Part shown: one piece after another, positions 1 through 18,604 of the stretch | Position numbering within the stretch: the first letter of the stretch is position 1 | How the letters are laid out: every line of letters starts with the position of its first letter | Virus record (IMG/VR): IMGVR_UViG_3300048833_000262 | Span: 1-27,245 of that record | DNA: 27,245 nucleotides | Source of the DNA: a virus | Reading direction: 5' to 3' (one strand) | Notes under the pieces: generated by a model | Databases searched by the model: none | What the model was told of the DNA's origin: nothing | What the model saw: the letters and a program-made list of their open reading frames with translations, nothing else | Made by a program: the position numbers and the translations under genes

Positions 1-19
1 AACCTATGTATCGGGCGTG

Positions 20-79
20 CGCTAACAATTCATTCAAGCCGACGCCGCTTCGCGGCGCGGCTTAATTCAGGCGTTATGC
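20..79 (+). repeat. attC site 1 (60 bp, aadA-like)
   Basis: R'' box CGCTAAC at 20-26, inner arms CAAGCCGA and CGGCTTAA around a GCCGC-TTCG-GCGGC hairpin, and R' box GTTATGC at 73-79. Cleavage is expected after G73. Its 1L arm belongs to a cassette mostly left of the window. The unpaired A in the left arm gives the standard attC polarity on the + strand. Confidence 0.9.
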
Positions 80-315: not shown

Positions 316-335
316 GTCGCCTCCGGTCGGTTGTG

Positions 336-423
336 GCATAACAATTCGCTCAACCCGACGCCGCTTCGGGTTCACGGTGAAATCACGCGCTCACGGCGGC
401 GCGGGTTAGCTCAGGCGTTAGGT
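336..423 (+). repeat. attC site 2 (88 bp)
   Basis: 1L box GCATAAC (336-342), inner arms CAACCCGA and CGGGTTAG, 1R box GTTAGGT (417-423). The terminal structure is longer than in site 1. The 1L box pairs with the TTATGCC that starts its own cassette at 74, but poorly with the 1R of this site, which belongs to the next cassette. Confidence 0.9.
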
Positions 424-648: not shown

Positions 649-664
649 TGGCTTCTCGTTGGCA

Positions 665-753
665 ACCTAACAATTCATTCAAGCCGAGCCCGCTTCGCGG
701 TCTCGGTGCTACCGGCTCGCATCGGGCGGGCCGGCTTAACTCAGGCGTTAGCT
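665..753 (+). repeat. attC site 3 (89 bp)
   Basis: 1L ACCTAAC (665-671), arms CAAGCCGA and CGGCTTAA, 1R GTTAGCT (747-753). The flank GGCAACCTAAC pairs with TTAGGTTGC at 418, the other end of the same cassette. Confidence 0.9.
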
Positions 754-960: not shown

Positions 961-982
961 GTCTCGCTCCGTAGTGGGCGCC

Positions 983-1072
983 AGCCAACAATTCGTTCAA
1001 GCCGAGACCGCTTCGCGGTCTCGCGCGTGTCTCACTCGCCGGCTGCGGTCCGGCTTAACTCAGGCGTTAGGT
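983..1072 (+). repeat. attC site 4 (90 bp)
   Basis: 1L AGCCAAC (983-989; the usual TAAC is CAAC here), arms CAAGCCGA and CGGCTTAA, 1R GTTAGGT (1066-1072). The flank GCCAGCCAAC matches the cassette start TTAGCTGGC at 748 with one transition. Confidence 0.88.
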
Positions 1073-1438: not shown

Positions 1439-1444
1439 ACTGCA

Positions 1445-1504
1445 ACCTAACAATTCGGTGTAGCCGAACCCGCTTCGCGGGTCGGCTAACCTCAGCCGTT
1501 AGGC
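1445..1504 (+). repeat. attC site 5 (60 bp)
   Basis: 1L ACCTAAC (1445-1451), arms TAGCCGA and TCGGCTAA around CCCGC-TTCG-CGGG, 1R GTTAGGC (1498-1504). It has the variant right arm CTCAGCCGTTA rather than CTCAGGCGTTA. The flank TGCAACCTAA pairs with TTAGGTTGCA at 1067. Confidence 0.9.
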
Positions 1505-1677: not shown

Positions 1678-1698
1678 TTCGTTCTCCGTAGGCCAGCG

Positions 1699-1789
1699 GC
1701 CTAACAATTCGTTCAAGCCGAGCCCGCTTCTCAGCTTCAACGGGGTTTGTGTGTTCCGGCAGCGGGCCGGCTTAACTCAGCCGTTATGT
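1699..1789 (+). repeat. attC site 6 (91 bp)
   Basis: 1L GCCTAAC (1699-1705), arms CAAGCCGA and CGGCTTAA, 1R GTTATGT (1783-1789). The flank GCGGCCTAA pairs with TTAGGCCGC at 1499. The terminal stem is the most divergent of the nine (TTCTCAGCTTCAACGG). Confidence 0.88.
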
Positions 1790-2032: not shown

Positions 2033-2055
2033 GTTCCCTCCTTAGTTCCTCCCGC

Positions 2056-2115
2056 ACATAACAATTCGCTGTAGGCGAGACCGCTTCGCGGCCCGCCTAA
2101 GCTCAGCCGTTAGAA
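2056..2115 (+). repeat. attC site 7 (60 bp)
   Basis: 1L ACATAAC (2056-2062), arms TAGGCGA and CGCCTAA around ACCGC-TTCG-CGG, 1R GTTAGAA (2109-2115). The flank GCACATAA pairs with TTATGTGC at 1784. Confidence 0.88.
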
Positions 2116-2526
2116 CTCAATTCGGGCATCGCCGAACTTGACGCTTTTGCTTGCGCCGCGTGACCAGCACCCCGGAGAAGTGTTCACCCAGCCCGCCGCA
2201 ATGCGGCCTTCGTCTATCAGGACTTGCATCGCGTCGTACATCGACGGCGACTTCCAGTTCCCGGACGCCTTCGACTTGACATACATGGCGGTCAGCTTGT
2301 CCCACTCGCGCACCAAGCCAACCCACTCGGGGTATTTCTCGGCCACTTCGTGCAACCGTGCCCGATATGCGGGGAACGCCTCAAGCAATCGGTGGCAGCG
2401 GCCAAAGTCACTCGGGTCACTCGGAACGTCTGCGGACCTTGGCGGAGGCGTGCCTTCCATGACGTGCATGATTGTTTTGCTGCTGGTGCCGGTGTCGTCA
2501 CCCATCATCCATTCAAGCGGGGTCAT
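2110..2526 (-). CDS. Cassette-encoded phage-like protein, 138 aa, unknown function
   Basis: ATG 2526 is preceded by TACGGAGAACCAA, nearly the same ribosome-binding leader as the ORF at 1492-1677. TAA 2112-2110 is formed by the attC 1R box. This is the largest cassette protein. It starts MTPLEWMMGDDTGTSSKTI, continues with a region containing DFGRCHRLLEAFPAYRARL and YPEWVGLVREWDKLTAMY, and ends with a beta-rich region around AAGWVNTSPGCWSRG. I associate this layout with hypothetical proteins in Pseudomonas- and Xanthomonas-type prophages, not with classical resistance cassettes; that is an unverified recollection. It suggests that phage genes have been packaged as cassettes. Confidence 0.8.
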   Translation of the reverse strand: MTPLEWMMGDDTGTSSKTIMHVMEGTPPPRSADVPSDPSDFGRCHRLLEAFPAYRARLHEVAEKYPEWVGLVREWDKLTAMYVKSKASGNWKSPSMYDAMQVLIDEGRIAAGWVNTSPGCWSRGASKSVKFGDARIEF

Positions 2527-2546
2527 TTGGTTCTCCGTATGTTGAG

Positions 2547-2606
2547 TTCTAACAATTCGGTGTAGCCGAAACCGCTTCGCGGTTCGGCTAACCTCAGCCG
2601 TTAGGC
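2547..2606 (+). repeat. attC site 8 (60 bp)
   Basis: 1L TTCTAAC (2547-2553), arms TAGCCGA and TCGGCTAA around ACCGC-TTCG-CGGT, 1R GTTAGGC (2600-2606). The flank TTGAGTTCTAA pairs with TTAGAACTCAA at 2110, an 11-bp self-match. Confidence 0.9.
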
Positions 2607-2803
2607 CGCAGGCTCAGAACTTCCGGCGGGAAGCCTGGCGTAACGATCACGGCGGACATGCCGGCGCTGTAGAACAAGCCTCCCGGAGTCTGCTTTGGTT
2701 CAAGCGCCCATGCTTTAACATAACCGTGCGCGTCCGCTGTGATGTAATTCGCCCACTCTGGGGCTTGCTTCCTGTATTGCTCCAGAAAATTGCCTTGTTC
2801 CAT
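2594..2803 (-). CDS. Cassette-encoded small protein, 69 aa, unknown function
   Basis: ATG 2803 is preceded by GAGGAGGCGCA, a strong ribosome-binding site; a longer in-frame extension to 3103 would cross attC9 and the next gene and is rejected. The protein starts MEQGNFLEQYRKQAPEWANY and contains GYVKAWALEPKQTPGGLFYS, a small alpha/beta domain rich in aromatic residues. It ends RPNG-TGA using attC8 sequence, exactly like the ORF at 1492-1677. No known family assigned. Confidence 0.72.
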   Translation of the reverse strand: MEQGNFLEQYRKQAPEWANYITADAHGYVKAWALEPKQTPGGLFYSAGMSAVIVTPGFPPEVLSLRPNG

Positions 2804-2823
2804 TGCGCCTCCTCGGGCCATCG

Positions 2824-2913
2824 GCCTAACAATTCGTTCAAGCCGAGACCGCTTCGCGGCCTCGGCGCACACCGTATCGCATCGCGCGGTCAGGCATAAC
2901 TCAGCCGTTATGC
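2824..2913 (+). repeat. attC site 9 (90 bp), terminal site of the array
   Basis: 1L GCCTAAC (2824-2830), arms CAAGCCGA (left) and GGCATAA (right, diverged from CGGCTTAA), 1R GTTATGC (2907-2913). The flank CGGCCTAA pairs with TTAGGCCG at 2601. No further TAACAATTC site with a matching GGCGGCATAAC flank follows to the right, so this is the last site. Its 1R supplies the stop codon of the PrtN-like gene. Confidence 0.88.
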
Positions 2914-3180
2914 CGCCTGATGAATCCGCTTCCACTCCTTCGCCGCTTCTTCGTGCTTGGCATCGATGTACGCGGCCAGTGCGTCTGCGGAGACCATCCA
3001 CGGAGACTTCTGGCTGCCCAGGCGGAAAACGGGAACAGGCAGCGCCTGGCGCACGGCGGCGCGCTTGGCTTCGTCGGGTTTCAGGCCGAAGTGGTGGCAG
3101 CACTTTTCCAGCGGAATCTGCGCGGTGCCGAACTCGGCGCAGAGGAGGAAGAAGGTGCGGGTGTTGGCGGGTGCGGTCAT
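2908..3180 (-). CDS. PrtN-like pyocin-activator family regulator, 90 aa
   Basis: The segment NTRTFFLLCAEFGTAQIPLEKCCHHF, then VPVFRLGSQKSPWMVSADALAAYIDAKHEEA, matches the PrtN pattern: NTFFLL at the N-terminus, an AxFGTAxIPLE motif, a basic R-x-GSQK turn and a terminal AxYID helix. PrtN activates pyocin genes in Pseudomonas; PrtN-like proteins in prophages often sit beside the integrase and may act as excision or early regulators (established family knowledge plus inference). ATG 3180 lies one base after the upstream TGA. ATG 3192 is an alternative, but the AGGAGG touches it directly. The TAA stop (2910-2908) is created by the attC9 core, so this gene joins the phage operon to the cassette array. 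Confidence 0.82.
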   Translation of the reverse strand: MTAPANTRTFFLLCAEFGTAQIPLEKCCHHFGLKPDEAKRAAVRQALPVPVFRLGSQKSPWMVSADALAAYIDAKHEEAAKEWKRIHQAA

Positions 3181-3181
3181 G

Positions 3182-3436
3182 TCAGCTGCCATCCTCCTGG
3201 CAGATAGGCATCGGCCGCGGCACGATATCCAGCAGGCGGTCGATCTGGTCGCGCAAGGCGACCACGGTGGCGGTCTGCAGGTGCGGGGCGGCCAGCTGGA
3301 TGTTGGCTTCGCGCAGGGCGTGTTCGGCCTGTTGCAGCCAGTCAGCGTGCGTGGCGAGTGCTTGCGCGGTGGACAGGTCGAACTTGCGCAGGGACTCCGC
3401 GATGGCGCGTGCGCGGCTGGCGGTGAAGCGCTCCAT
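3182..3436 (-). CDS. Small helical phage protein, 84 aa
   Basis: Starts at ATG 3436, overlapping the upstream stop as TGATG, which indicates translational coupling. A longer frame to 3535 exists but would overlap its neighbour heavily. The protein begins MERFTASRARAIAESLRKFD and is helical throughout, with an Ala/Gln-rich stretch and a final acidic EDGS. It ends one base before the PrtN-like start, and its last codons hold the AGGAGG for that gene. No family recognised; a small regulatory or inhibitor protein of the early-left operon is plausible. Confidence 0.72.
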   Translation of the reverse strand: MERFTASRARAIAESLRKFDLSTAQALATHADWLQQAEHALREANIQLAAPHLQTATVVALRDQIDRLLDIVPRPMPICQEDGS

Positions 3437-3675
3437 CAGACGCCCCGCATGACGCGCTGGGCTTCGGCGATGCGCGTGCTGAGCGCTTCGTTTTCGTCGC
3501 GCAGGTGCTGCAGGGCCTGGCGATCGCGCGCCCATTCGCGGGCGCGCAGTTCATAGGCTTCGGCGTTGATGTCGTTGCCGTTGCCGCGTTCGGCATGGGC
3601 CACGGCTTCAAGGAACTCGGGGCCGGTCATGGCGGTGGCGTGCAGTTGCATGGTGGTCTCCGGGTCGAGGGTCAT
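3436..3675 (-). CDS. Small helical phage protein, 79 aa, coiled-coil-like C-terminus
   Basis: ATG 3675 overlaps the upstream stop as ATGA. The protein begins MTLDPETTMQLHATAMTG and its second half (EAYELRAREWARDRQALQHL, then RDENEALSTRIAEAQRV) has heptad spacing of leucines and charged residues expected of a coiled coil. No catalytic motif, signal or membrane segment. Unknown function; member of the coupled early-left operon. Confidence 0.72.
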   Translation of the reverse strand: MTLDPETTMQLHATAMTGPEFLEAVAHAERGNGNDINAEAYELRAREWARDRQALQHLRDENEALSTRIAEAQRVMRGV

Positions 3676-4247
3676 GGCGCGCCATGCCGGCGGGGGTGAA
3701 CGGCGCCGCGCCGGCGCAGCAGTGGGGTTCCCGCGTGGCTGTGGTCGAAGCGCAGCGGGTTGCCGCTGTCGTGCGGGCCCAGCACCTGCACGCGCCCGCC
3801 GCGTGCCTGGAACTGCTCGACGGTTTCGGTGCGGTTGCCCGCGTAGTGGATCTTTGGCGGCGGTGGCGGGTTAGCCACGCGGATGTAGGAAGCCGGCGCG
3901 GGCTTGCGCGCCTTGGGTGACGCTGGTGCGGCGGCGGCCTTCGCCTGGCGCCTGGCGCGCTGCCCGGCGATCTTGCGCTGGACCGGATCGCCCGGCTTCC
4001 GGCGCAGCTCGCGCAGATCCACGCACGTGGTGGGCGTGGGCCAGTAGCGCGCCGGGTTGTGCCGGCGGCCGTCTTCATCGCGCCGCAGCTTTCCGAATTC
4101 CACCAGCTGCGACAGCCTGGCGCTGATGCTGGTGATCTTGGCGCGCGGGGCGATACCCAGTGCAGCGGCGATTTGCCGAAGGGTGATGCCGGGGCTGGCC
4201 TTCACCGCCTGCTGGATGGCCATGGACGTGCTGATGTGCGCGTTCAT
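3672..4247 (-). CDS. Winged helix-turn-helix protein, 191 aa
   Basis: The N-terminal 70 residues read as a winged HTH: AIQQAVKASPGITLRQIAAA, then LGIAPRAKITSISARLSQLV and a wing GKLRRDEDGRRHNPARYW. A basic, Ala/Pro-rich linker follows (residues about 95-130, including PPPPPKIHY), then a C-terminal region with an ETVEQFQARGGRVQVLGPHDSG segment. DNA binding is likely; the target is unknown. The start ATG 4247 overlaps the previous stop as ATGA. It is the largest gene of the early-left operon and a candidate operon regulator. Confidence 0.75.
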   Translation of the reverse strand: MNAHISTSMAIQQAVKASPGITLRQIAAALGIAPRAKITSISARLSQLVEFGKLRRDEDGRRHNPARYWPTPTTCVDLRELRRKPGDPVQRKIAGQRARRQAKAAAAPASPKARKPAPASYIRVANPPPPPKIHYAGNRTETVEQFQARGGRVQVLGPHDSGNPLRFDHSHAGTPLLRRRGAVHPRRHGAP

Positions 4248-4366
4248 GCCGCCACCGACAGGTAGGCGATGCGGCGATCGATGGCGCGCAGGATGCGGTG
4301 GTAGGCGCGCAGCCGGCCTTCGGCCAGGGCGCGGGTTTTCATGGCGTAGAGCTGATGCAGTTTCAT
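4244..4366 (-). CDS. Very small basic protein, 40 aa
   Basis: A longer frame to 4720 is an artefact: ATG 4366 (MKLHQLYAMKTRALAEGRLR) overlaps the upstream stop as ATGA, in keeping with the rest of the operon. The product is a basic helical peptide, RAYHRILRAIDRRIAYLSVAA, likely an amphipathic helix. It may bind nucleic acid or a partner protein. No family recognised. Confidence 0.6.
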   Translation of the reverse strand: MKLHQLYAMKTRALAEGRLRAYHRILRAIDRRIAYLSVAA

Positions 4367-4605
4367 GCGGCCGCCTGCGCCAGCTTGAGCCCGCGCGGTG
4401 TGAGGGTGACGCAGCTGGGCAGGGTGCGGTCGTTGAAATCCGCCAGCATGGCGTTGACCAGGTCGTTGGCGGTGCGGCGGGTGACGGCCGGGCTGCTGGC
4501 GAAGGTGCCGGCGGCGCGGAAGCCCTTGCAGCAGCGCACCAGCCGGTGCTGTGGCGCGGCGGCGGCCAGCTGCAGCGCCTCGCGGAGTTTGGGGGTGATG
4601 TCCAT
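4363..4605 (-). CDS. Small phage protein, 80 aa, HTH-like
   Basis: Starts MDITPKLREALQLAAAAP at ATG 4605, overlapping the upstream stop as TGATG. The middle, RTANDLVNAMLADFNDR, is helical, and the end, CVTLTPRGLKLAQAAA, resembles the wing and last helix of a small winged-helix protein (TPRGLxLA is a common pattern). A DNA-binding role is possible but not proven. No zinc or catalytic motifs. Confidence 0.68.
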   Translation of the reverse strand: MDITPKLREALQLAAAAPQHRLVRCCKGFRAAGTFASSPAVTRRTANDLVNAMLADFNDRTLPSCVTLTPRGLKLAQAAA

Positions 4606-4859
4606 CAGCGGATCCTCGTGGTGGCCCAGCGCAGCACGTCCTGCGCCTGGGCAAGGGTGAGTGGGCCGGGGTTGCTGCTGCCGTCGCGGAAGGCGGTGCC
4701 GGCGAGCAGGGATTGCGCACGCATGCGGGCGCCGGTTTCGTCCGGGAAGACCGGTGGCGCGAGCGGGGACCATCGGCCAGGTGCGCGTGCGGCGGCGGCC
4801 TTGGCGCGCACCAGCCGCAGGATGGCGTGCGGGTTGCGGATGTTGAGGGCGCGGCTCAT
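4605..4859 (-). CDS. Small phage protein, 84 aa
   Basis: ATG 4859 (MSRALNIRNPHAILRLVRAK) overlaps the upstream stop as ATGA. The first 25 residues are strongly basic, followed by a Pro-rich turn (GRWSPLAPPVFPDETG) and a helical end, LTLAQAQDVLRWATTRIR. No family recognised. A longer frame to 5057 would conflict with the neighbouring coupled gene. Confidence 0.66.
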   Translation of the reverse strand: MSRALNIRNPHAILRLVRAKAAAARAPGRWSPLAPPVFPDETGARMRAQSLLAGTAFRDGSSNPGPLTLAQAQDVLRWATTRIR

Positions 4860-5101
4860 GCCTGCGCCTCCAGCGCCTGCTGCATGTACATGGGTTGCAT
4901 GGGCCACACGTGGCAATGCGGCACGCGGGCGTTGAGCAGCGGCTGCATCACGTAGAAGGACACGCCGGGGTTCACGTGCGCCAGCGCTTCCGCGGCGGAG
5001 CGCGCTTTGCCGATGTTGGTGTAGCGCGTCTTCGGGGCGTCGAAGTGCGGGGACCACACCAGCCAGAAGCCGGTGGTGTTGACGGGCACCTGCACCTTCA
5101 T
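4856..5101 (-). CDS. Small phage protein, 81 aa
   Basis: ATG 5101 (MKVQVPVNTTGFWLVWSPHF) overlaps the upstream stop as ATGA. The first half suggests beta strands with DAPKTRYTNIGKARSAAEALA, a pattern like a small single-domain alpha/beta protein. The C-terminus is rich in methionine, histidine and proline (VPHCHVWPMQPMYMQQALEA), which could bind metal; this is only suggestive. Function unknown. Confidence 0.68.
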   Translation of the reverse strand: MKVQVPVNTTGFWLVWSPHFDAPKTRYTNIGKARSAAEALAHVNPGVSFYVMQPLLNARVPHCHVWPMQPMYMQQALEAQA

Positions 5102-5208
5102 GGCAGCACCCCGGCGGCCTGCGCCAGCGCCACGATCAGCGCGCCCGCGGTGCCGAGGGCGAGCGCGGCGTTTTCCGCGAAGGTGGGGGGGTAGGCGGGG
5201 CGCTTCAT
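5098..5208 (-). CDS. Tiny membrane protein, 36 aa
   Basis: ATG 5208 (MKRPAYPPTF) overlaps the preceding stop as ATGA, and the gene ends in an ATGA overlap with the next. One hydrophobic segment (ALALGTAGALIVALAQAAGV) follows a short positively charged start, so a single-pass inner membrane peptide with N-in topology is likely. The genes on both sides are coupled to it, which supports translation. Function unknown. Confidence 0.6.
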   Translation of the reverse strand: MKRPAYPPTFAENAALALGTAGALIVALAQAAGVLP

Positions 5209-5372
5209 GCCGCACCTTCGATGGGCGTGGCGTGGTAGACGGCCAGCCAGATGGCGCCCAGCTCGATCAGCACCAGCACCGGCCACGGCGTGCTGGCCAG
5301 CAGCAGCAGGGCGAGCAGCCACCAGCGGCAGGCGGTGGCGTCTTCGATGCGTTCCAGGATGGTGAGTTGCAT
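5205..5372 (-). CDS. First gene of the PL operon: small membrane protein, 55 aa
   Basis: Reading from ATG 5372 gives MQLTILERIEDATACRWWLL and then a hydrophobic run through ALLLLASTPWPVLVLIELGAIWLAV, ending EGAA at TGA 5207. Two short transmembrane segments separated by a Pro turn are likely. GGAGG sits 4 nt before the ATG and is also the 3' arm of the leader hairpin at 5377-5396. The stop overlaps the next start as ATGA. As the first gene behind PL it would be strongly expressed on induction. No family recognised. Confidence 0.68.
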   Translation of the reverse strand: MQLTILERIEDATACRWWLLALLLLASTPWPVLVLIELGAIWLAVYHATPIEGAA

Positions 5373-7710: not shown

Positions 7711-7788
7711 GCCGGTCTCCGGTGGGGTTGGTGGGGTCGCACTCCCAGCCTACACCGGGGCCGGCGCCTTCCCGAGTGGGGTGGCCTG

Positions 7789-8061
7789 ATGCGCTCATGG
7801 CTGCGCACCGCGTTCACCCTGGCCGCGCTGCTGCTGGTCCTTGCCCTGGTGGGCGTGGCGGTGGCGGGGGTGATCCGGCGGCACGTGGAAGAGCACGGCC
7901 ACCACCGCGCCGGCGCCGTGCGTGGCGTGGAAGGCGCGCAGCGGGGTGAAGGTGGGCGGGCGCGGGAAGGGCAGCAGGGTGGTCATGGCTCTTTTTTTGC
8001 CCCGGGGAGCGTGTCCGACGCTGTCCGACGTCGTCGGAACGTGTGGGACAACCACTCATGA
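7789..8061 (+). CDS. Putative small membrane protein, 90 aa
   Basis: ATG 7789 begins a protein with basic start (MRSWLRTAF), one strong transmembrane helix (TLAALLLVLALVGVAVAGVI), and then a hydrophilic, Gly/Arg/Glu-rich tail. The stop overlaps the next start as ATGA, which supports translation. A run of seven T at 7988-7994 lies inside the frame. A - strand frame over 7795-7985 is also open and has similar codon quality, so strand is not fully certain. Function unknown. Confidence 0.5.
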   Translation: MRSWLRTAFTLAALLLVLALVGVAVAGVIRRHVEEHGHHRAGAVRGVEGAQRGEGGRAREGQQGGHGSFFAPGSVSDAVRRRRNVWDNHS

Positions 8062-8450
8062 GCGATCAGATTCCGCTGTTCGTGGAGGATTACCACGAGG
8101 CCATCCGCGCCACTGTGCAGGCGCTTGGCGGGTTCAAACGGGTGGGGGCGGACATGAAGCCGGATCTGGCGGTGGATGCCGCGGGCCGGTGGTTGGCGGA
8201 CTGCTGCAACGCTGAGAAGCGGGAGAAGCTGAGCCCCACGGAACTGGCCTACATCCGCCGCTGTGCGCGGCAGGCCAACGTGCACATCCTGGCCGCCTTC
8301 GAGATGCGAGACGCCGGCTATGGCGATCCGCTGCCCATCGAACCGGAAGACGAACGCGCCGCGCTGCAGCGGGAGTTCGTGCAGTCGACCAAGTCGCTGG
8401 AGCGAATGCTCGCCCGGCTGCAGTCAATCGGAGGCGCCGCCAATGCCTGA
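8058..8450 (+). CDS. CII-like early regulator, 130 aa
   Basis: Begins MSDQIPLFVEDYHEAIRATV, with ALGGFKRVGADMKPDLAVDAAGRWLADCCN next, then LSPTELAYIRRCARQANVHILA. The arrangement (helix-turn-helix-like first half with GGxKxVGxxMxPD and CxNxEKxEKLSPxEL) is what I associate with the phage regulatory proteins encoded after Cro in Burkholderia, Bordetella and Xanthomonas phages, often annotated CII-like. The C-terminal ERMLARLQ helix may mediate oligomerisation. By position it would control the lysis-lysogeny decision, but activation of a repressor promoter is inference. Starts with an ATGA overlap. Confidence 0.68.
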   Translation: MSDQIPLFVEDYHEAIRATVQALGGFKRVGADMKPDLAVDAAGRWLADCCNAEKREKLSPTELAYIRRCARQANVHILAAFEMRDAGYGDPLPIEPEDERAALQREFVQSTKSLERMLARLQSIGGAANA

Positions 8451-8673
8451 CCTGATGGATCGCGTGCAGCAGCACGCGGAAGACATGACCAGCGATGCCC
8501 TGGCCGCGCATGCGCAGCGGCCCCGTGCCCCGGGCCTGACCCACTGCGAGCACGCGGACTGCGCCGAGCCCATCGCACCACAACGCACCGCGCTGGGCGC
8601 ACGCCTGTGCCTGGACTGCCAGACCGGCGTGGAAGCGCAGCGCGTGCATCAACAGACATGGGGGCGCCGGTGA
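8443..8673 (+). CDS. DksA/TraR-type C4 zinc-finger protein, 76 aa
   Basis: ATG 8443 overlaps the preceding stop by 8 nt and has GGAGG at suitable spacing. After a helical start (MPDLMDRVQQHAEDMTSDAL) come THCEHADCAEPI and ARLCLDCQTG, giving C-x4-C ... C-x2-C, the C-terminal zinc finger of phage DksA/TraR-like proteins. Such proteins bind the RNA polymerase secondary channel or act in phage transcription. The coiled-coil tip of full DksA is absent, as usual for short phage forms. Role in early transcription inferred. Confidence 0.85.
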   Translation: MPDLMDRVQQHAEDMTSDALAAHAQRPRAPGLTHCEHADCAEPIAPQRTALGARLCLDCQTGVEAQRVHQQTWGRR

Positions 8674-8676
8674 GCC

Positions 8677-8886
8677 ATGCGAACCGCGCGACGCCAGCTT
8701 CGCGCAGTACCAGCATCGCGGCAGGCGGTGAACGGCCGGCGTCTGGCCGAGGTCATGTCCCTGCTGTATTCGGACACACCCACCACGCCGGAGCAGGCTG
8801 CTGCGCTGCAGGTGGAACTGGCGGCACCACGCACGCAGCGGCAGTGCGATCTGCCGCTTTGCATTCCGGAACCTGATTCCAAATGA
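8677..8886 (+). CDS. Small phage protein, 69 aa, unknown
   Basis: ATG 8677 lies 3 nt after the zinc-finger stop. The protein is basic at the start (MRTARRQLRAVPASRQAVNG), then contains SLLYSDTPTTPEQAAALQVE and RTQRQCDLPLCIPEPDSK. It has two cysteines but no complete zinc site. No family recognised. The tight spacing places it in the early-right operon. Confidence 0.6.
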   Translation: MRTARRQLRAVPASRQAVNGRRLAEVMSLLYSDTPTTPEQAAALQVELAAPRTQRQCDLPLCIPEPDSK

Positions 8887-9125
8887 CGTCTACTCCCTGC
8901 GTTCCGGCGCCAAGCGCGCCGTGCATCGGCGCCGCTGCACTCCGCCATGGTGGTGATCAACCCCCGCCCCCCTGTGGGTTGGGACCGCGCGGCTGGCGCG
9001 GTGGCATGGGAGACGCGGCCGCATCGCAAGGCGATGGCACCGGTCGCGGGTCCTCCCTGGGGGGTCGCCATGCGGGTAATTCGGACCCCGCTGGGACGGT
9101 AGTTAGCGGGCTGGAAAGTTACTGA
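8883..9125 (+). CDS. Doubtful small ORF before the primase, 80 aa
   Basis: Overlaps the previous stop as ATGA and ends 1 nt before the primase start, which favours coupling. The protein is rich in Gly, Pro, Ser and Ala (MTSTPCVPAPSAPCIGAAAL) without clear secondary structure. A second + frame, 8947-9102 (MVVINPRPPVGWDRAAGAVA), is an alternative of 51 aa. Codon preference does not decide between them, and this stretch could be mostly noncoding leader for the primase gene. Confidence 0.33.
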   Translation: MTSTPCVPAPSAPCIGAAALRHGGDQPPPPCGLGPRGWRGGMGDAAASQGDGTGRGSSLGGRHAGNSDPAGTVVSGLESY

Positions 9126-9126
9126 A

Positions 9127-11541
9127 ATGGCCGCGAGCAACTACGACGACGTCCTCAGCCAACTCCACGCCGCCGGCCTGATCGTCGACCGCCTCGAGGT
9201 CACCGGCAAGATCGTCCGCTGCAAAGTCGAGGGCGATCGCGAAAAACGCGGCTGGTACAGCCTCCACGAATTCACCACCAGCCGGAATGACGTCCTGATC
9301 GTCGGCAGCTACGGCCAGTGGCGCGGCGCGGAGAACTTCGCCCAGCGCATCGAGCTCAAGTCCCAGAAGATGGACCCGGTCGAAGCCGCCGCGCTGAAGC
9401 GCCGCCTGGCCGATGACCGCAAGGCCGCGGACGCTGCCCAGGCCGCCACCCACAAGCGCGCCGCCGAAGCCGCCAGCCTCATGTGGGCGAAGCTCTCCGA
9501 AGACGGAGACTCCGATTACCTCGCCGCGAAGAAGGTGCAGGGCTACGGCCTGCGCTACTCGCCGCGCGGCGGCGCTGTGCTGCCGGTGCTGGACACGCAA
9601 GGCCGGATCCACGGCCTGCAGATCCTGCGCACGCCGGCCGCCGCGGAACGCGAGAGGAAACCCGCCAAGGAATTCTGGCCGAAGGGCGTGGCGAAGAAGG
9701 GCCACTTCCACCTGATCGGCAGTCCCGCGTGGATCGTGCTGATCGCCGAGGGCTACGCCACCGCCGCCTCCCTGCACGCGGCCACCGGACACCCGGTGGC
9801 CGTTGCGTTCGATGCCGGCAATCTGGCGCCCGTCGCCGACGCCCTGCGCAAGCGCTACCCGCAGACCAAGATACTGCTGTGCGCCGACAACGACGACCTC
9901 GGCAAGTGCCGCCACGACGACTGCCGCGGGCGCGTCGCCCTGGCGCAGCACCCGGTGGAATGCCCGCACTGCGGCAAGGAACACGGCTACACCAACGCCG
10001 GCGTGGGCGCCGCCAGCAGCGCGGCGCTCGCGGTGAAGGGCGGCTGGGTCGCGCCCACCTTCGCGGATCCGGACGCGCGCATCGCCGCCTACCTCGAGCG
10101 CGGCAGCAAGCCCACCGACTTCAACGACCTCCACGTCGACGAAGGCCTGCACGTCGTGCGCGTGCAGGTGGAGGCCCACCTCACGGCATTGCGCTGGAAC
10201 CCCAAGGTTCCCACTGCGGCGGCCACCACCACCAGCGGGGGAGGGGCGCCGCTGCGCCCGATCGAAACCACGCAAGAGTTGATGGAGCGCTTCGCGCTGG
10301 TGGCCAGCACGCCGGTCGCCGTGTTCGATCGCCAGGAGCATCGCCTGCGCACGCTCGCGGACATGCGGGAGATGTGCACGTTCAAGTGGGTGCACCGCGG
10401 CTGGTCGGAATCCACCGAACGCCAGATCGTGCGCGACAGCGAAGTCGGCTTCGATCCCACCGGCCAGGACACCAGCGTCACCTGCAACCTCTACGCCGGC
10501 TGGCCCACGGTACCGAAGGAAGGCAGCTGCGAGCGCCTGCTGGATCTGCTGCGCTACATGTGCAGCGAGGACCGCAATCCCGCGGCGCTCTATCAATGGT
10601 TGCTGCGCTGGATCGCCTATCCCATCCAGCACCCCGGCGCGAAGATGAAGACCACGCTGGTCCTGCACGGCCCGCAGGGCGCCGGCAAGAACCTGTTCTT
10701 CGAAGCGGTGATGAAGATCTACGGCGAGTACGGCGACGTGCTCGACCAGGCCGCGGTGGAAGACAAGTTCAACGATTGGGCATCGCGCAAGCTCTTCATG
10801 ATCGCGGACGAAGTGGTGGCGCGCTCCGGCGCGTACCACATCAAGAACCAGCTGAAGTCCCTGATCACCGGGGACCGGATCCGCATCAACCCGAAGAACA
10901 TGGCCGCGCACTGGGAACGCAACCACCTCAACCTGGTGTTCCTCTCCAACGAATCCATGCCGGTGGTCATCGAAGAGGATGATCGCCGCCACTGCGTGGT
11001 GTGGACGCCAGGCAAGGAATCGCGCGAGTACTACCAGAAGGTCATGGCGGAGATCGCCGCCGGCGGCGTCGCCGCGCTGCATCACTACCTGCTGCACATG
11101 GACCTGGGCGACTTCGACAACGGCACCCTCCCGCCGAAGACCGAGGCGAAGCAGGAGCTGATCAAGCTCGGCCTGGACAGCCCGGTCCGCTTCTACGACG
11201 AGCTGATGCTCGAAGAGATCCCGAAGGTCGATCCCATGCCGGGGCTCACCACGGACTGGTACCAGCTCTACAGGACATGGTGCGCCAAGCACGGCTACCA
11301 CATGGCGCCAGAGGCGAAGTTCGTCATCGCCCTCACCCGGCAGCGCGGTGTGCAGAAGCTGCGCAAGCGCTACACCCCGGGGGCCGAGGAGCGCGGGCCC
11401 CACTGGTTCCTGTTCCTGGGCGCCGCCAATCCGCCTGAAGGGCAAAGCCAGGCGAACTGGCTCGGCACCTGTTACGCCCGCGTGCGCGAGCAGCTCGAGG
11501 ACTACAAGGGCCGCCCGCAGGGCGCCGGAGGTGGCGCGTGA
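9127..11541 (+). CDS. P4-alpha-like primase-helicase, 804 aa
   Basis: The N-terminal half carries a TOPRIM domain: Glu208 in LIAEGYATA and the acidic CADNDD motif from Asp254. Between them and the linker is a cysteine-rich insert (CRHDDCRG and CPHCGKEHG), a probable zinc finger. The C-terminal half is an SF3-type helicase of the phage DUF5906 kind, with Walker A HGPQGAGKN (about residues 514-522), Walker B region MIADEVV, and a motif-C-like LNLVFLSNES. The last 100 residues (TTDWYQLYRTWCAKHGYHMA onward) look like a winged helix for origin recognition. It should prime and unwind phage DNA, probably starting at the iteron cluster just downstream. Start ATG is 1 nt after the previous stop. Confidence 0.93.
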   Translation: MAASNYDDVLSQLHAAGLIVDRLEVTGKIVRCKVEGDREKRGWYSLHEFTTSRNDVLIVGSYGQWRGAENFAQRIELKSQKMDPVEAAALKRRLADDRKAADAAQAATHKRAAEAASLMWAKLSEDGDSDYLAAKKVQGYGLRYSPRGGAVLPVLDTQGRIHGLQILRTPAAAERERKPAKEFWPKGVAKKGHFHLIGSPAWIVLIAEGYATAASLHAATGHPVAVAFDAGNLAPVADALRKRYPQTKILLCADNDDLGKCRHDDCRGRVALAQHPVECPHCGKEHGYTNAGVGAASSAALAVKGGWVAPTFADPDARIAAYLERGSKPTDFNDLHVDEGLHVVRVQVEAHLTALRWNPKVPTAAATTTSGGGAPLRPIETTQELMERFALVASTPVAVFDRQEHRLRTLADMREMCTFKWVHRGWSESTERQIVRDSEVGFDPTGQDTSVTCNLYAGWPTVPKEGSCERLLDLLRYMCSEDRNPAALYQWLLRWIAYPIQHPGAKMKTTLVLHGPQGAGKNLFFEAVMKIYGEYGDVLDQAAVEDKFNDWASRKLFMIADEVVARSGAYHIKNQLKSLITGDRIRINPKNMAAHWERNHLNLVFLSNESMPVVIEEDDRRHCVVWTPGKESREYYQKVMAEIAAGGVAALHHYLLHMDLGDFDNGTLPPKTEAKQELIKLGLDSPVRFYDELMLEEIPKVDPMPGLTTDWYQLYRTWCAKHGYHMAPEAKFVIALTRQRGVQKLRKRYTPGAEERGPHWFLFLGAANPPEGQSQANWLGTCYARVREQLEDYKGRPQGAGGGA

Positions 11542-11548
11542 CCGGGCG

Positions 11549-11809
11549 TGTGCGGGGTGTGCGGGGTCTGTGCACCCACCTGTGCGGGGTCGAAACCCGC
11601 GCCGCCATTGGCTTGTGCGGGGTGTGCGGGGTCTCGCCTAACGCGGGCGCGCACACGCGAAGCCGCGCCGCCGCCGCCATCCGCCCACGCTCGCGCAATC
11701 GTGCGCACACACGCACACCCCCGCACACCCCGCACGCCCCGCACAACGCAAGCGTGGCGCGGGTTTCGTCTGTGCGGGGTCGCAAGCGGCACCCCGCACA
11801 CCCCGCACA
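11549..11809. repeat. Iteron cluster, 11 copies of a 9-mer (candidate origin)
   Basis: TGTGCGGGG occurs on the + strand at 11549, 11558, 11581, 11614, 11623 and 11771. Its complement CCCCGCACA occurs at 11719, 11728 (last base G), 11737, 11792 and 11801. Neighbours are often exactly 9 bp apart, head to tail. The region 11542-11878 holds no convincing gene; its open frames translate to low-complexity Cys/Gly/Val or Pro/His repeats. It directly follows the primase-helicase gene, as the P4 origin repeats relate to the alpha protein system, so an origin is inferred. Confidence 0.7.
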
Positions 11810-11878
11810 GCCATGCTCGCGCGCACGCGTCTGTCCTCTTTTCCTTGTTCCCCGAGAGGAAGGAAGGGGAGGCAACCC

Positions 11879-12481
11879 ATGAAGGCCGCCCGCAAGCCGG
11901 TCACCCTGAAGGCCTTCGCCCGGATCCTGGACCGGTCCCCCAGCTACATCACCGAGCTGAAGGCCGCAGGCCGCCTTGTCCTCACCGATGACGGCAAGGT
12001 CGACGTCGACGCGTCCCTGGCGCTGATCAAGGCCACCGCAGACCCGGCGAAGGACGGCGTGCGCGCCCGCCATGCCGCCTCACGCGAGGGGAGTGGGGCG
12101 GTCGCCCCGCCCGCGGCGCCAGAACGCGACGAAGCGCCGGACAGCACGCCGCAGACGTACCCGCCCGCGGGCGATCGCATCGGCAGCACCTACCAGGCCA
12201 GCCGCGCCGTGCGCGAGCGCTACCTGGCCATGGAAGCCAAGCGCGCCTACGAGGTCGCCATCGGCAAGCTGCTGGACGCAGGCGAGGTGCAGACCGTGGT
12301 GGCCAGCGCCACCACCAGCCTGCGCACCGCGCTGGAAAACCTGCCCACGCGGCTAGCGCCAGAGCTCGCCGCCATCACCGACGAAGCCAAGACCCGCGGC
12401 CTGCTGGCGGAAGCCATCGCCAACGTCCTGGCGGATCTCTCGCGTCAATTCGACGCCCTCTCCCGACAGGCCTCGCCATGA
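11879..12481 (+). CDS. Phage terminase small subunit, Nu1-like, 200 aa
   Basis: ATG 11879 has GGGGAGG 6 nt upstream. The N-terminus is an HTH of the Nu1 kind (VTLKAFARILDRSPSYITEL, then KAAGRLVLTDDGKVDVDASL), a Pro/Ala-rich linker covers residues about 70-105, and a C-terminal helical region (RYLAMEAKRAYEVAIGKLLD and beyond) would oligomerise and contact the large subunit. It binds packaging sites and recruits TerL. The stop overlaps the methyltransferase start as ATGA. The large subunit is two genes downstream, consistent with the role. Confidence 0.85.
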   Translation: MKAARKPVTLKAFARILDRSPSYITELKAAGRLVLTDDGKVDVDASLALIKATADPAKDGVRARHAASREGSGAVAPPAAPERDEAPDSTPQTYPPAGDRIGSTYQASRAVRERYLAMEAKRAYEVAIGKLLDAGEVQTVVASATTSLRTALENLPTRLAPELAAITDEAKTRGLLAEAIANVLADLSRQFDALSRQASP

Positions 12482-13857
12482 ATGCCATCGCCATGCCCGC
12501 CGCCATCGAGCACCTGCCCATCGATGCGCTGGTCCCCTACGCCCGCAACAGCCGCACCCACTCCGATGCGCAGGTGGCGCAGGTGGCCGCCAGCATCCGC
12601 GAGTTCGGCTTCACCAACCCGGTGCTGATCGATGATGCCGGCGGGATCATCGCCGGCCACGGTCGCGTCATGGCGGCGCGCAGCGTGGGATTGGACACCG
12701 TGCCATGCATCCGCTTGGGCCACCTGTCCGAGGCGCAGCGCCGGGCCTACGTGATCGCCGACAACAAGCTGGCACTCAACGCGGGCTGGGATGAAGCATT
12801 GCTCGCCGCCGAGCTGCGCGACCTGGCCGGCTTCGAGTTCGACCTGAATCTCACCGGCTTCATGGGCGACGAGATCGACGCGCTGCTGGCATCCGAGGAT
12901 GCGCGTGCATCGCGCTCCGACAAGGACCCTGACGAAGCACCAGCGCCTGCAGCGCGTGAAGTCAGTCGCCCCGGCGAAGTGTGGATCCTCGGCAAACACC
13001 GCCTCGGCTGTCTGGACGGCACCGACGCCGCCGCCTGGCCCAAAGTCATGCGCGCCGACAAGGCCGCCGTCTGCTGGACCGATCCCCCCTACAACGTCGC
13101 CTACGTCGGCGAGGCGGGGAGCATCGACAACGACGACATGTCGGACGCCGATTTCCTCGAGTTCCAGCGCACCCTGTTGCGCAACGTGGCCGCGGTCATG
13201 AAGTCGGGCGCCGCGATCTACGTCGCCCATGCCGATAACGGCGAGACCGGGATCTCCTTTCGGCGCGCCTTCATCGACGCTGGATTCAAGCTGGCGGCGT
13301 GCCTGGTCTGGCGCAAGGATTCGCTGGTGATGGGTCGCGCTGACTACCAGTGGATCCACGAGCCGATCCTGTACGGCTGGAAGACAGGCGCGGGTCACAC
13401 CTGGCACGGTGGGCGCAAGCAAGTCTCGCTGACTGCGCTTGGCAGCTCGGAGTCGCCATTCGTCCAGTTGCCGGACGGCCGCTGGAAGATCGAGATCGGC
13501 GAAGAGATCCTGATCGTCGACGGATCCGCCACCGTCGAATGGGTGGAGGGGTCCGTGCTCCGGGAGGTGCGCCCGAAGCGCAACGACCTGCACCCCACCA
13601 TGAAGCCGGTTGCGCTGATCGAGCGGATGCTGCGCAACAACGCCAAGCCCGGCCAGGTGGTGATCGATCCCTGCGGCGGCTCCGGGTCCACGCTCATCGC
13701 AGCCGAGCGCCAGGGCATGAGCGCCCGCCTGCTGGAAATCTCCCCGCGATTTGTCGACGTGATCATCCGCCGCTGGCAGGAATTCTCGGGGGGGGGGGCA
13801 ACGTTGGAGGGCGACGGCCGCACCTTCGCGCAGATCGCGGCGGAGCGGGGCGCCTGA
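12478..13857 (+). CDS. ParB-like/N4-N6 DNA methyltransferase fusion, 459 aa
   Basis: Residues about 10-105 form a ParB/Sulfiredoxin-like domain with GGIIAGHGRVMAA. The methyltransferase follows: motif IV TDPPYNV (Asp202) precedes motif I DPCGGSGST (Asp397), the beta-class order of N6-adenine or N4-cytosine enzymes, with the target recognition region between. It probably modifies phage DNA to evade host restriction or mark packaging sites. An uninterrupted run of 11 G (13788-13798) lies in the codons for EFSGGGATLE near the C-terminus; a one-base change would replace the last 20 or so residues. Sits between the two terminase genes, with an ATGA start overlap. Confidence 0.9.
   Translation: MNAIAMPAAIEHLPIDALVPYARNSRTHSDAQVAQVAASIREFGFTNPVLIDDAGGIIAGHGRVMAARSVGLDTVPCIRLGHLSEAQRRAYVIADNKLALNAGWDEALLAAELRDLAGFEFDLNLTGFMGDEIDALLASEDARASRSDKDPDEAPAPAAREVSRPGEVWILGKHRLGCLDGTDAAAWPKVMRADKAAVCWTDPPYNVAYVGEAGSIDNDDMSDADFLEFQRTLLRNVAAVMKSGAAIYVAHADNGETGISFRRAFIDAGFKLAACLVWRKDSLVMGRADYQWIHEPILYGWKTGAGHTWHGGRKQVSLTALGSSESPFVQLPDGRWKIEIGEEILIVDGSATVEWVEGSVLREVRPKRNDLHPTMKPVALIERMLRNNAKPGQVVIDPCGGSGSTLIAAERQGMSARLLEISPRFVDVIIRRWQEFSGGGATLEGDGRTFAQIAAERGA
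13788..13798 (+). repeat. Poly-G tract (G11) inside the methyltransferase gene
   Basis: Eleven consecutive G at codons encoding SGGGA. Such tracts slip during replication and can switch a gene; a shift would move the stop to about 13865, into the start of the large terminase gene. The run also makes assembly error possible. Confidence 0.85.
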
Positions 13858-13861
13858 CCGC

Positions 13862-15823
13862 ATGACCGCTGCTGCCGCCCCGCGCATCAATGCCGCTATC
13901 GCCCGCGCCCTGGCGCCGCGCAAGCCGCTGACCGTGTCGCAGTGGGCGGACGCCAACCGCGTGATCTCCAGCAAAGAGTCATCGATGCCCGGGCAGTGGC
14001 GGACGTCCACCGTGCCCTACCTGCGCGAGCCCATGGACGCGCTTTCGTCACGCAGCACCGTGCACGAGGTGGTGCTGAAGTTCCCCATCCAGTCGGCCAA
14101 GACGGCCGCCGCGCAGAACGTCATCGGCTACACCATGGACCACGACCCCTGTCCGGTCATGGTTTGCCTGCCGGGCGAAGTCTCCATGGGCAAGTGGGTG
14201 GCGCAAAAGCTCAACCCGCTGCTCGACGAGACGCCGGTGGTCCGCACCGCACTGTCCAGCGTTGCCAGCCGCGACAGCAGCAACCAGCGATTCTTCAAGG
14301 ACTTCGCCGGCGGCCAGCTCTACATCGAACACGCCGGCAGTCCGCAGCGCCTGAAGTCGACCAGCGTCCGCAAGCTGATCGTGGACGAGATCGATGAATT
14401 CGCCACCGCCATGCGCAGCGGCGACGATCCGGTCGCGCTGCTCGAGGGCCGCACGTCCGCATTCCCCGCGAATCACCAGCGCCTGTTCATCAGCACGCCA
14501 TCGCTGACCGGCGTGTCCCGCATCGACGCGCTCTACGATCGCTCCGACCGCCGCCGCTACTACGTCGCCTGCCCGGACTGCGATCACAAGCAACCGCTCG
14601 AATGGAACGGCCTGCACTGGACGCCGGATGCCAGCCACTGCTGGTACGTCTGTCGGGAATGCGGCGTCATGATCGAAGAGCACCACAAGCCGCACATGAT
14701 CGCGGATGCGGATCGCCGGGCACTCGCCGGCGAGCCTGGCATCGGATGGGTGCCTGAGAATCCTGGCGCGCGGTCGCGCGGCTACACCATCAACTGCCTG
14801 TACTACAGCTTCGGCCTTGGTCCGCGTTGGCTGGACCTGGTGCACATGTGGCGGGACGCGCAGAACGACCCCGCCAAGCTGAAGACCTTCATCAATGACC
14901 GGCTCGCGGAATCGTGGGAAGACCCCGCCATGCGCGCCGTCAAGCACAACCTGGTGGCGGACCGCGCGGAGCCGCTGCCGCTCCGCCCGGTGCCGGCGTG
15001 GGTGCTGGCGTGCACGGTGGGCATCGACACGCAGGACAACCGCCTGGCCGTGCAGATCCTCGGCTGGGGCCGCGGCCTGACCTGCTGGCCGGTCGACTAC
15101 ATCGAACTCCCCGGCGACCCCGCCGAAGCCGACGTCTGGACCGCGCTGGTCGACCTGCTCTCGCGCCCGGTGGATCGCATCGACGGCGCCAGCCTGCGCG
15201 TGGATGCTGGCCTCATCGACATCGGCGGCCACCGCACGGAAGCGGTGAAGGCCTTCGTGCGCGGCAAGCTGGTGCGGCGCCTGATGGCCGGCTTCGGCGC
15301 CACCGCCAACAACGCCGCCGTGCTGGGCAAGGGCAAGCTGGTCGACATCAACTGGCGCGGCCTGTCGGACAAGCGCGGCGTGCACATCCACCAGGTGGGC
15401 ACCGTCGCCATCAAGCACCTGCTCTACAGCTGGCTCAGCAGCGACGCCGACAAGCAACCAGACGCCCGCCGCCTGCGCTTCAGCGAAGAACTCAACGCGG
15501 ATTACTTCGGCGGCCTGGTCGCGGAGACCTACAACCCCAGCAAGAACCGCTTCGAGAAGCGCCGCGGCGGCCCCCGCAACGAACCGCTGGACACGTGGGT
15601 GTACGGCTACGCCGCCACCCACCACCCCGAACTGCGCCTGCACCGCTGGACCAAGGCGGACTGGGACAGGCGGGAGGCCGCGCTACTGGCGCAGGCCGGG
15701 CAAGACCGCAGTGATTCCCGTGAAACATCATCAGGGCCAGACCATGACCAAGACGCGCCGGCAGCACTCATCGACAAGCCTCGCCAGCAACGACGCGGGC
15801 GCGGCTTCGCCACCAGCTGGTGA
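13862..15823 (+). CDS. terL: Phage terminase large subunit, GpA family, 653 aa
   Basis: ATPase features are visible: a deviant Walker A FPIQSAKT (74-81), Walker B LIVDEIDE (172-179), and the motif FISTPS (209-214). A zinc-ribbon-like insertion has CPDC (237-240) and CWYVCREC (260-267). The C-terminal nuclease domain holds GIDTQDN (Asp389) and VDAGLID. This is the GpA/lambda-type packaging motor that cuts and translocates DNA into proheads. The start follows the methyltransferase stop by 4 nt. The basic C-terminal tail (KPRQQRRGRGF) overlaps a second gene in another frame, 15744-15823. Confidence 0.95.
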   Translation: MTAAAAPRINAAIARALAPRKPLTVSQWADANRVISSKESSMPGQWRTSTVPYLREPMDALSSRSTVHEVVLKFPIQSAKTAAAQNVIGYTMDHDPCPVMVCLPGEVSMGKWVAQKLNPLLDETPVVRTALSSVASRDSSNQRFFKDFAGGQLYIEHAGSPQRLKSTSVRKLIVDEIDEFATAMRSGDDPVALLEGRTSAFPANHQRLFISTPSLTGVSRIDALYDRSDRRRYYVACPDCDHKQPLEWNGLHWTPDASHCWYVCRECGVMIEEHHKPHMIADADRRALAGEPGIGWVPENPGARSRGYTINCLYYSFGLGPRWLDLVHMWRDAQNDPAKLKTFINDRLAESWEDPAMRAVKHNLVADRAEPLPLRPVPAWVLACTVGIDTQDNRLAVQILGWGRGLTCWPVDYIELPGDPAEADVWTALVDLLSRPVDRIDGASLRVDAGLIDIGGHRTEAVKAFVRGKLVRRLMAGFGATANNAAVLGKGKLVDINWRGLSDKRGVHIHQVGTVAIKHLLYSWLSSDADKQPDARRLRFSEELNADYFGGLVAETYNPSKNRFEKRRGGPRNEPLDTWVYGYAATHHPELRLHRWTKADWDRREAALLAQAGQDRSDSRETSSGPDHDQDAPAALIDKPRQQRRGRGFATSW

Positions 15824-16106
15824 ACTGCCCTACAGCGAGACGGATCTGGTGGCGGACATCCTCTACCGGATGACGCAGCTGGTGCCGGTGTCGCCGGCCG
15901 TGGTGGTGGCGGTGGAACACGAAGTGCGGCGGGACTGGGGCGGTGGGCGTCACTACGTGGCCAAGATCGGGGAGTGCGGCAAGCAACAGCTGGCCGCGCG
16001 TGATCGCCAGATCCGCGCGGACGCCAACCGCGGGGAAAGCGACACCCTGCTGGCCAGCCGCTACGGCATCTCGATCCGCCGCATCCAGCAGATCCTCGGG
16101 CGCTGA
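15744..16106 (+). CDS. Mor-like transcription regulator, 120 aa
   Basis: Starts within the end of the large terminase gene in another frame; ATG 15744 is preferred, GTG 15711 is possible. The first 25 residues are Ser/Ala-rich. The rest matches the Mor/Martha pattern: DILYRMTQLVPVSPAVVVAV, EVRRDWGGGRHYVAKIGECG, then RADANRGESDTLLASRYGIS and IRRIQQILGR as a C-terminal HTH. Mor is a late-middle activator of phage Mu. This protein lies directly before the first copy of the 28-bp stem-loop element and the head gene block, so it may activate or modulate late genes; inference. Confidence 0.78.
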   Translation: MTKTRRQHSSTSLASNDAGAASPPAGELPYSETDLVADILYRMTQLVPVSPAVVVAVEHEVRRDWGGGRHYVAKIGECGKQQLAARDRQIRADANRGESDTLLASRYGISIRRIQQILGR

Positions 16107-16108
16107 TC

Positions 16109-16136
16109 CGGAAACGGTTTGCCTTACTCATTTCCG
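16109..16136 (+). promoter_or_regulatory. 28-bp stem-loop element, copy 1
   Basis: CGGAAACG, then GTTTGCCTTACT, then CATTTCCG: a near-palindromic stem with a conserved 12-nt loop, one mispair in this copy. It lies in the gap between the Mor-like gene and the next CDS (16160). The same element recurs at 21825. Confidence 0.72.
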
Positions 16137-16159
16137 AAAACGCGGCCACGCTGGCCAGC

Positions 16160-16702
16160 ATGACCGACCTCCCCACTTCGATTCCCGTCGAGCTTCGTGC
16201 CGGGGATACGATCCGCTGGCGTCGCAGCCTTCCGGACCATCAAGCCACCGCTGGCTGGGTCCTGGCGTACGCGCTGATCACCACCACCTCGGTGCACAGC
16301 ATCGCCACCACGGCGGACGGCGCGGACCACGTGGCGGAGGCGCTGGCCGCAGACACGGACAGCTGGCCGCCCGGCGCGGCGCAGCTGGTGGAGTACGCCA
16401 CCAACGGCACGGACCGGGTCACCCTCAACAGCCTGCCGGTGCGCGTGTTGCCGGACCTCGCCGCCGCAAGCGCCGGCGCCGATCTGCGCAGCCACGCGCG
16501 CAAGGTGCTGGACGCCATCGAAGCCTGGCTGGAATCGCGCGCCCCGGTCGCCGGCACGCTGGAAATCGCCGGCCGCCGCATCCAGCACTACCCGCTGGAG
16601 GAACTGCTGGCGCTGCGCTCCCGCTACCGCGCGGAGGTCGCGCGTGAAGAGGCCGCCGCCGCCGGCAACCGCCCGTCGCGCCTGCTGGTGCGCTTCGGAT
16701 GA
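16160..16702 (+). CDS. Phage structural or head-joining protein, 180 aa, gpW position
   Basis: ATG 16160, with no strong Shine-Dalgarno, starts MTDLPTSIPVELRAGDTIRW. LRAGDTIRWRRSLPDHQATA is followed by a beta-rich domain and by DLRSHARKVLDAIEAWLESR and AGRRIQHYPLEELLALRSRY. The position between large terminase and portal is that of lambda gpW, but this protein is more than twice as long. I recall related proteins of this length in Pseudomonas phages, annotated hypothetical. The charged C-terminal helices may interact with the portal. Ends in an ATGA overlap with the portal gene. Confidence 0.72.
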   Translation: MTDLPTSIPVELRAGDTIRWRRSLPDHQATAGWVLAYALITTTSVHSIATTADGADHVAEALAADTDSWPPGAAQLVEYATNGTDRVTLNSLPVRVLPDLAAASAGADLRSHARKVLDAIEAWLESRAPVAGTLEIAGRRIQHYPLEELLALRSRYRAEVAREEAAAAGNRPSRLLVRFG

Positions 16703-18585: not shown

Positions 18586-18604
18586 CCCATTCGAGGATCC
18601 CGCA

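Follow-up and report, generated by a model that had tools for sequence, protein, structure and literature searches.

Integron integrases cut at G|TT, and G|TT is also the insertion core of attG sites. Where the cassettes of integrons come from is an old open question. Integrons and CALINs have already been reported in phage genomes, and the same report describes assays in which phage attCs recombine with attI1 and are recognised by IntI1 (Qi et al. 2023, PMC9892861). Cassette insertion at sites outside integrons, termed attG, has been described as well (work cited in PMC12444791). The locus analysed here lies in the IMG/VR virus record IMGVR_UViG_3300048833_000262, the whole of which (27,245 bases) we call the window and label G000 in comparisons. 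It combines an attC array with the end of a phage operon in an arrangement that differs from these described systems in the direction of its cassettes and in the place where the array begins.

The closest relative of the window phage is G001 (IMGVR_UViG_3300048586_000137), in which the primase, terminases, methylase and portal are 99-100% identical to those of the window; its prtN and early genes are just 45-84% identical, with 77% for the PrtN protein. At the DNA level, window positions 7780-18587 (L040 4810-15629) are 96% identical to G001 over 10.8 kb, and identity falls to 75-80% in the left arm, which points to recent mosaic exchange. A scan with the early-operon gene e7 returned G001 as the sole relative, and a PrtN scan of genome contigs found none. 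Stenotrophomonas phage S1 has related primase, terminase and portal genes (56-60% identity to the window primase and TerL), but its early region is different and the model scan found no attC in it. Because of the relatedness of primase and TerL to phage S1, the host of the window phage probably belongs to the Xanthomonadaceae. The features of the window used below are the following.

19-79, plus strand: attC1, CM 79.6 bits
67-315, minus strand: cassette ORF c1, reversed; protein 96% identical to one encoded in the cassette array of SZAS-112
335-423, plus strand: attC2, CM 70.4 bits
418-648, minus strand: cassette ORF c2, reversed; used in orientation scoring
664-753, plus strand: attC3, CM 72.7 bits
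748-960, minus strand: cassette ORF c3, reversed; used in orientation scoring
982-1072, plus strand: attC4, CM 71.5 bits
1067-1273, minus strand: cassette ORF c4, reversed; phrog_3491, E=2.5e-5
1444-1504, plus strand: attC5, CM 82.5 bits
1492-1677, minus strand: cassette ORF c5, reversed; used in orientation scoring
1698-1789, plus strand: attC6, CM 70.4 bits
1784-2032, minus strand: cassette ORF c6, reversed; phrog_26995; weak similarity to ribosome modulation factor (PF04957, E=9.4e-4, below cutoff)
2055-2115, plus strand: attC7, CM 80.4 bits
2110-2526, minus strand: cassette ORF c7, reversed; phrog_1229, E=8.9e-25; homologues in 173 isolated phages
2546-2606, plus strand: attC8, CM 82.8 bits
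2594-2803, minus strand: cassette ORF c8, reversed; phrog_1972, E=1.5e-6; used in orientation scoring
2823-2913, plus strand: attC9, which joins prtN; CM 67.9 bits, E=3.9e-14, with attC9 itself part of the training set of the scoring model; matches to attCs of plasmid cassettes; predicted crossover G|TTA between 2907 and 2908
2908-3192, minus strand: PrtN-like gene (pyocin activator family), last of the early leftward operon; 94 aa; PF11112, E=7.8e-19, and sequence
3182-5372, minus strand: early leftward operon, reading into prtN and then into the array; homologues e2-e9, order conserved in G001
9127-15823, plus strand: phage core used in comparisons (primase, small terminase, DNA methylase, large terminase); 99-100% amino acid identity to G001

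The model scan of the whole window places nine attC sites at 19-2913. Their outer boxes are conserved (RYYYAAC ... GTTRRRY), their inner boxes fold and an extrahelical base is present; of the 13 pairs in the fold, 5 are changed on both sides in a compensatory manner, and the unpaired base lies in 2L. By blastn the sites match plasmid resistance cassettes and host integron arrays; for example, two pieces of the array, reaching to position 2865, have a mean identity of 97.9% with qacF/aac(3)-Ib cassette arrays on plasmids. Since the attC scoring model was built from the window's own sites, the plasmid matches constitute independent evidence. On sequence grounds the sites are genuine attCs, and their recombination by an integron integrase is predicted. 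Taking a CALIN as at least two attCs with no nearby intI, the array is one, having nine attCs and no intI within the 27 kb record. A complete integron would comprise intI and attI; the 27 kb record, whose left end the array reaches, holds no match to TIGR02249.

The eight cassette ORFs of the window all run against the attC top strand, and most are preceded by a clear ribosome-binding site. In a classical gene cassette the ORF has the sense of the attC top strand, and here 8 of 8 are reversed. Half of the cassettes (c4, c6, c7 and c8) match phage protein families. Homologues of c7 also occur in 41 viral contigs with no significant attC nearby, so that this phage gene is found in cassette form as well as on its own. 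G001 repeats a piece of one window cassette (1375-1501) at 90% identity.

The initial annotation held that the stop codon of the PrtN-like gene is itself the core of the last attC, and that no further attC follows on the other side of the gene. Both points are confirmed: the stop TAA at 2910-2908 is the TTA of the attC9 1R box (GTTATGC, 2907-2913), and the model scan finds no attC elsewhere in the window than 19-2913. The assignment of the gene to the PrtN family is also clear, PF11112 scoring 68 bits against a cutoff of 24.2. In G001 prtN likewise ends GCGGCCTAAC within an attC, with a different array and different cassettes behind it. Four more array-adjoining phage genes have a stop codon that is attC core, namely the small gene of L118, the L378 gene at 11271, the L267 gene at 2374-4758 and the L256 gene at 2557-2826. 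The terminus GC(A/C)TAA|C was found in 6 of 6 array-proximal phage genes examined, as GCA TAA C in the window prtN and GCC TAA C in that of G001. Because the same ending recurs in the G001 prtN and in four other array-adjoining genes, the coincidence of the prtN stop with the attC core is not due to chance. Beside prtN in the PrtN relatives L020-L023, the attC scan finds no site. One provirus, L049 (G005, IMGVR_UViG_3300011710_000011), carries two prtN-like copies about 1 kb apart (9514-9741 and 10457-10738), possibly stacked prophage ends.

For the origin of the array the initial annotation had set growth inside the phage against insertion of a prophage at the last attC of a host array. An array inside the phage gains support from arrays that are internal to related genomes. 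In the sister phage L118 (IMGVR_UViG_3300014668_000004) a complete array of four attCs, flanked left and right by phage genes, separates the portal gene (PF05136, E=1.5e-83) from a small gene adjacent to terL. This array starts at the small gene's stop codon; in L140, L142 and L128 the same two genes are neighbours and the insert is missing. In L378 (IMGVR_UViG_3300010373_000012) a single contig carries, in this order, a tail/baseplate gene, an integrase (PF00589), an attC array and the early operon. The sister phages L378 and L381 are 98% identical over 5.9 kb and differ in their integrases and in the lengths of their arrays. The expectation that the array occupies the integrase region thus holds for L378, and for the window it is an extrapolation from such relatives. 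Its premise, that PrtN-like genes sit near the integrase, agrees with the roughly 0.1-1 kb between the two matches in G007, G008 and G009, and with G002, where PrtN and integrase stand at opposite provirus ends and so would be neighbours in the circular form.

A related prophage in the MAG SZAS-112 (TerL 70% and primase 74% identical) has an array beyond its left operon; past its integrase end come thrS and infC. Phage attachment at attC predicts a half-site at both prophage ends, and there is no attC at the integrase end of this prophage. Because of the arrangements in L118, L378 and SZAS-112, attC as attachment site is not supported for this lineage; these are tests in relatives, the window's own ends running off the contig. 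A second SZAS-112 contig holds more of an array, a gene with a weak HTH (xis-like) match and a tRNA-Leu. A 21-bp core, CCTCTCCTGGGCACCAAGGTT, is common to the 3' end of the tRNA-Leu (C29) and a site beside int (C13), and the two are a candidate attL/attR pair that would close the prophage around the array. We leave this pair as a candidate only, because tRNA-Leu and thrS are neighbours in none of the 29 family loci examined.

To compare phage arrays with those that accompany an integron integrase, viral contigs were scanned for the attC core regardless of orientation, attCs were located by the model and ORFs were scored; the set bearing intI consisted of three host genomes and two viral records. 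Among confident calls, phage arrays lacking intI had 64 of 69 ORFs reversed and arrays with intI had 5 of 23 (Fisher p=1.4e-10), and when the longest ORF only was taken the counts were 55 of 73 and 3 of 27 (p=6e-9); both p-values are optimistic, because cassettes within one contig are related and not independent. Of the 26 array-bearing viral records only 2 have an intI above cutoff, and the cassettes of these two are canonical; none of the reversed arrays has such an intI. The reversed ORFs stop exactly at TAA|C in 31 of 64 cases and inside an attC in 45 of 64. When the reversed signature itself (attC, ribosome-binding site, ATG) was the target of a second scan, 39 stretches matched; they were kept out of the statistics because orientation was the criterion of their selection. 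Canonical cassettes were seen in L049 at 15122-16486, between a cI-like repressor and another early gene, and are preceded there by a stretch common to the intI contig L227, as if host attI and cassettes had been captured whole.

Cassettes of this kind are shared between arrays. The SZAS-112 array repeats the c1 cassette together with the attC at its ORF end (96% protein identity); the two copies do not have the same 5' attC. The chromosomal integron of the SZAS-112 host, which has intI, includes one reversed cassette among canonical ones (L275 2755-3090); its protein belongs to the phage family phrog_1273, found also in the phage cassette L265:3641-3973. A cassette common to L245 and L267 has continuous identity only from TTAGG on, and the attCs before TTAGG differ. 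We had initially read the reversed unit as attC-RBS-ORF; the junctions of shared cassettes fit a moving unit with the attC either before or after the ORF. The placement of the window array at the end of the early operon and its reversed direction suggest that such phages have a cassette pool of their own, overlapping that of their hosts.

We consider it likely that the window array is a phage-borne attC cluster without its own intI, situated at the promoter-distal end of the early operon, whose attC units a host IntI inserted in trans at G|TTA. It would occupy the interval between prtN and the integrase/att region, the latter placed by comparison with relatives. Read on the other strand, G|TTA is the stop codon TAA followed by C, and an insertion just after a stop codon would leave the gene unbroken and would force the attC to lie backwards relative to the operon. 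Landing at stop codons would therefore account for the shared stop/core junction as well as for the reversal of the cassettes. The cassette ORFs have the direction of the operon, so the phage early promoter most likely drives their expression. The observations behind this reading are the stop/core junction, arrays internal to related genomes, reversed cassettes, cassettes common to different arrays and the phage-family cassette in a host integron. Against this reading stand the reversed ORFs themselves, only 31 of the 64 ending exactly at TAA|C, and the canonical cassettes of phage TJE1. The window array also runs off the contig, so that its far boundary, with any intI or int there, falls outside the record.

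The junction of the L245/L267 cassette at TTAGG and the differing 5' attC of c1 disagree with a simple crossover at 1R; top-strand attC recombination, or homologous recombination with attC as linker, would fit them better. One could go further and let phage enzymes of the Red, ERF or YqaJ type swap all cassettes, with attC repeats as mere homology linkers and no role for IntI after a first capture. The L245/L267 junction, the unequal arrays of L378 and L381 (the latter with a YqaJ recombinase) and the want of an intI above cutoff in every reversed array agree with this, but compensatory changes that keep the attC fold and its extrahelical base are what would be expected if a hairpin-reading recombinase still acts, and a host integron contains a reversed cassette of phage type. 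As a full account we hold exclusive homologous exchange to be unlikely, and the IntI and homologous routes may both operate.

A still weaker contender is capture of the entire array from a host integron, which would make it an ordinary CALIN on board a phage: this suits L049 and L235, where canonical cassettes follow a region common to the intI contig L227, and the attC sequences are of host type, yet cassettes in the window, as in most other phage arrays, run opposite to those of hosts, and the c7 family occurs in 173 isolated phages. Least probable is a prophage inserted in a host chromosomal integron, with attC as attachment site and the cassettes as host sequence. In relatives such as G002, PrtN-like genes are indeed found close to the ends of the prophage, and a Vibrio prophage with attC flanks has been described (PMC9892861); the single-contig internal arrays of L118 and L378, the SZAS-112 integrase end without attC, cassette ORFs reversed unlike those of host arrays and the phage protein families matched by half of the window cassettes all speak against it.

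Beyond this locus, and more tentatively than insertion by a host IntI into the window phage, we suggest that many phages keep their own pool of attC cassettes, reversed so as to be read from phage operons and not from the integron Pc promoter, and traded with chromosomal integrons through the host integrase with stop codons as landing sites. That the phage cassettes have attC types, and at least one cassette of a phage family, in common with a chromosomal integron suggests that phages are one source of integron cassettes. Reversed polarity and the stop-codon junction are simple predictions that can be tested on existing genomes, and together they explain why such cassettes would be silent in a host array and active in a phage operon. 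No report of either was found in the searchable literature, outside which most subscription journals lie, and both may perhaps be new.

The phage CALINs of Qi et al. resemble the window in being attC clusters without intI in phages, and the accessible part of their report describes neither reversed ORFs nor a constant location within one phage lineage nor a stop-codon junction (PMC9892861). Their TJE1 array has the canonical orientation, as we confirmed here, in contrast to the reversed array of the window. Insertion at attG, so far as the account of it goes, is similar in that cassettes are placed outside attI at a short core; unlike it, window-type sites cluster at phage stop codons, a pattern seen in the sequences. 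With the chromosomal integrons of Xanthomonadales (e.g. PMC12444791) the window shares its type of attC sequence, and a host MAG has intI together with such an array. The cassettes of those hosts are mostly canonical and start at attI beside intI, whereas the phage arrays are reversed and without intI.
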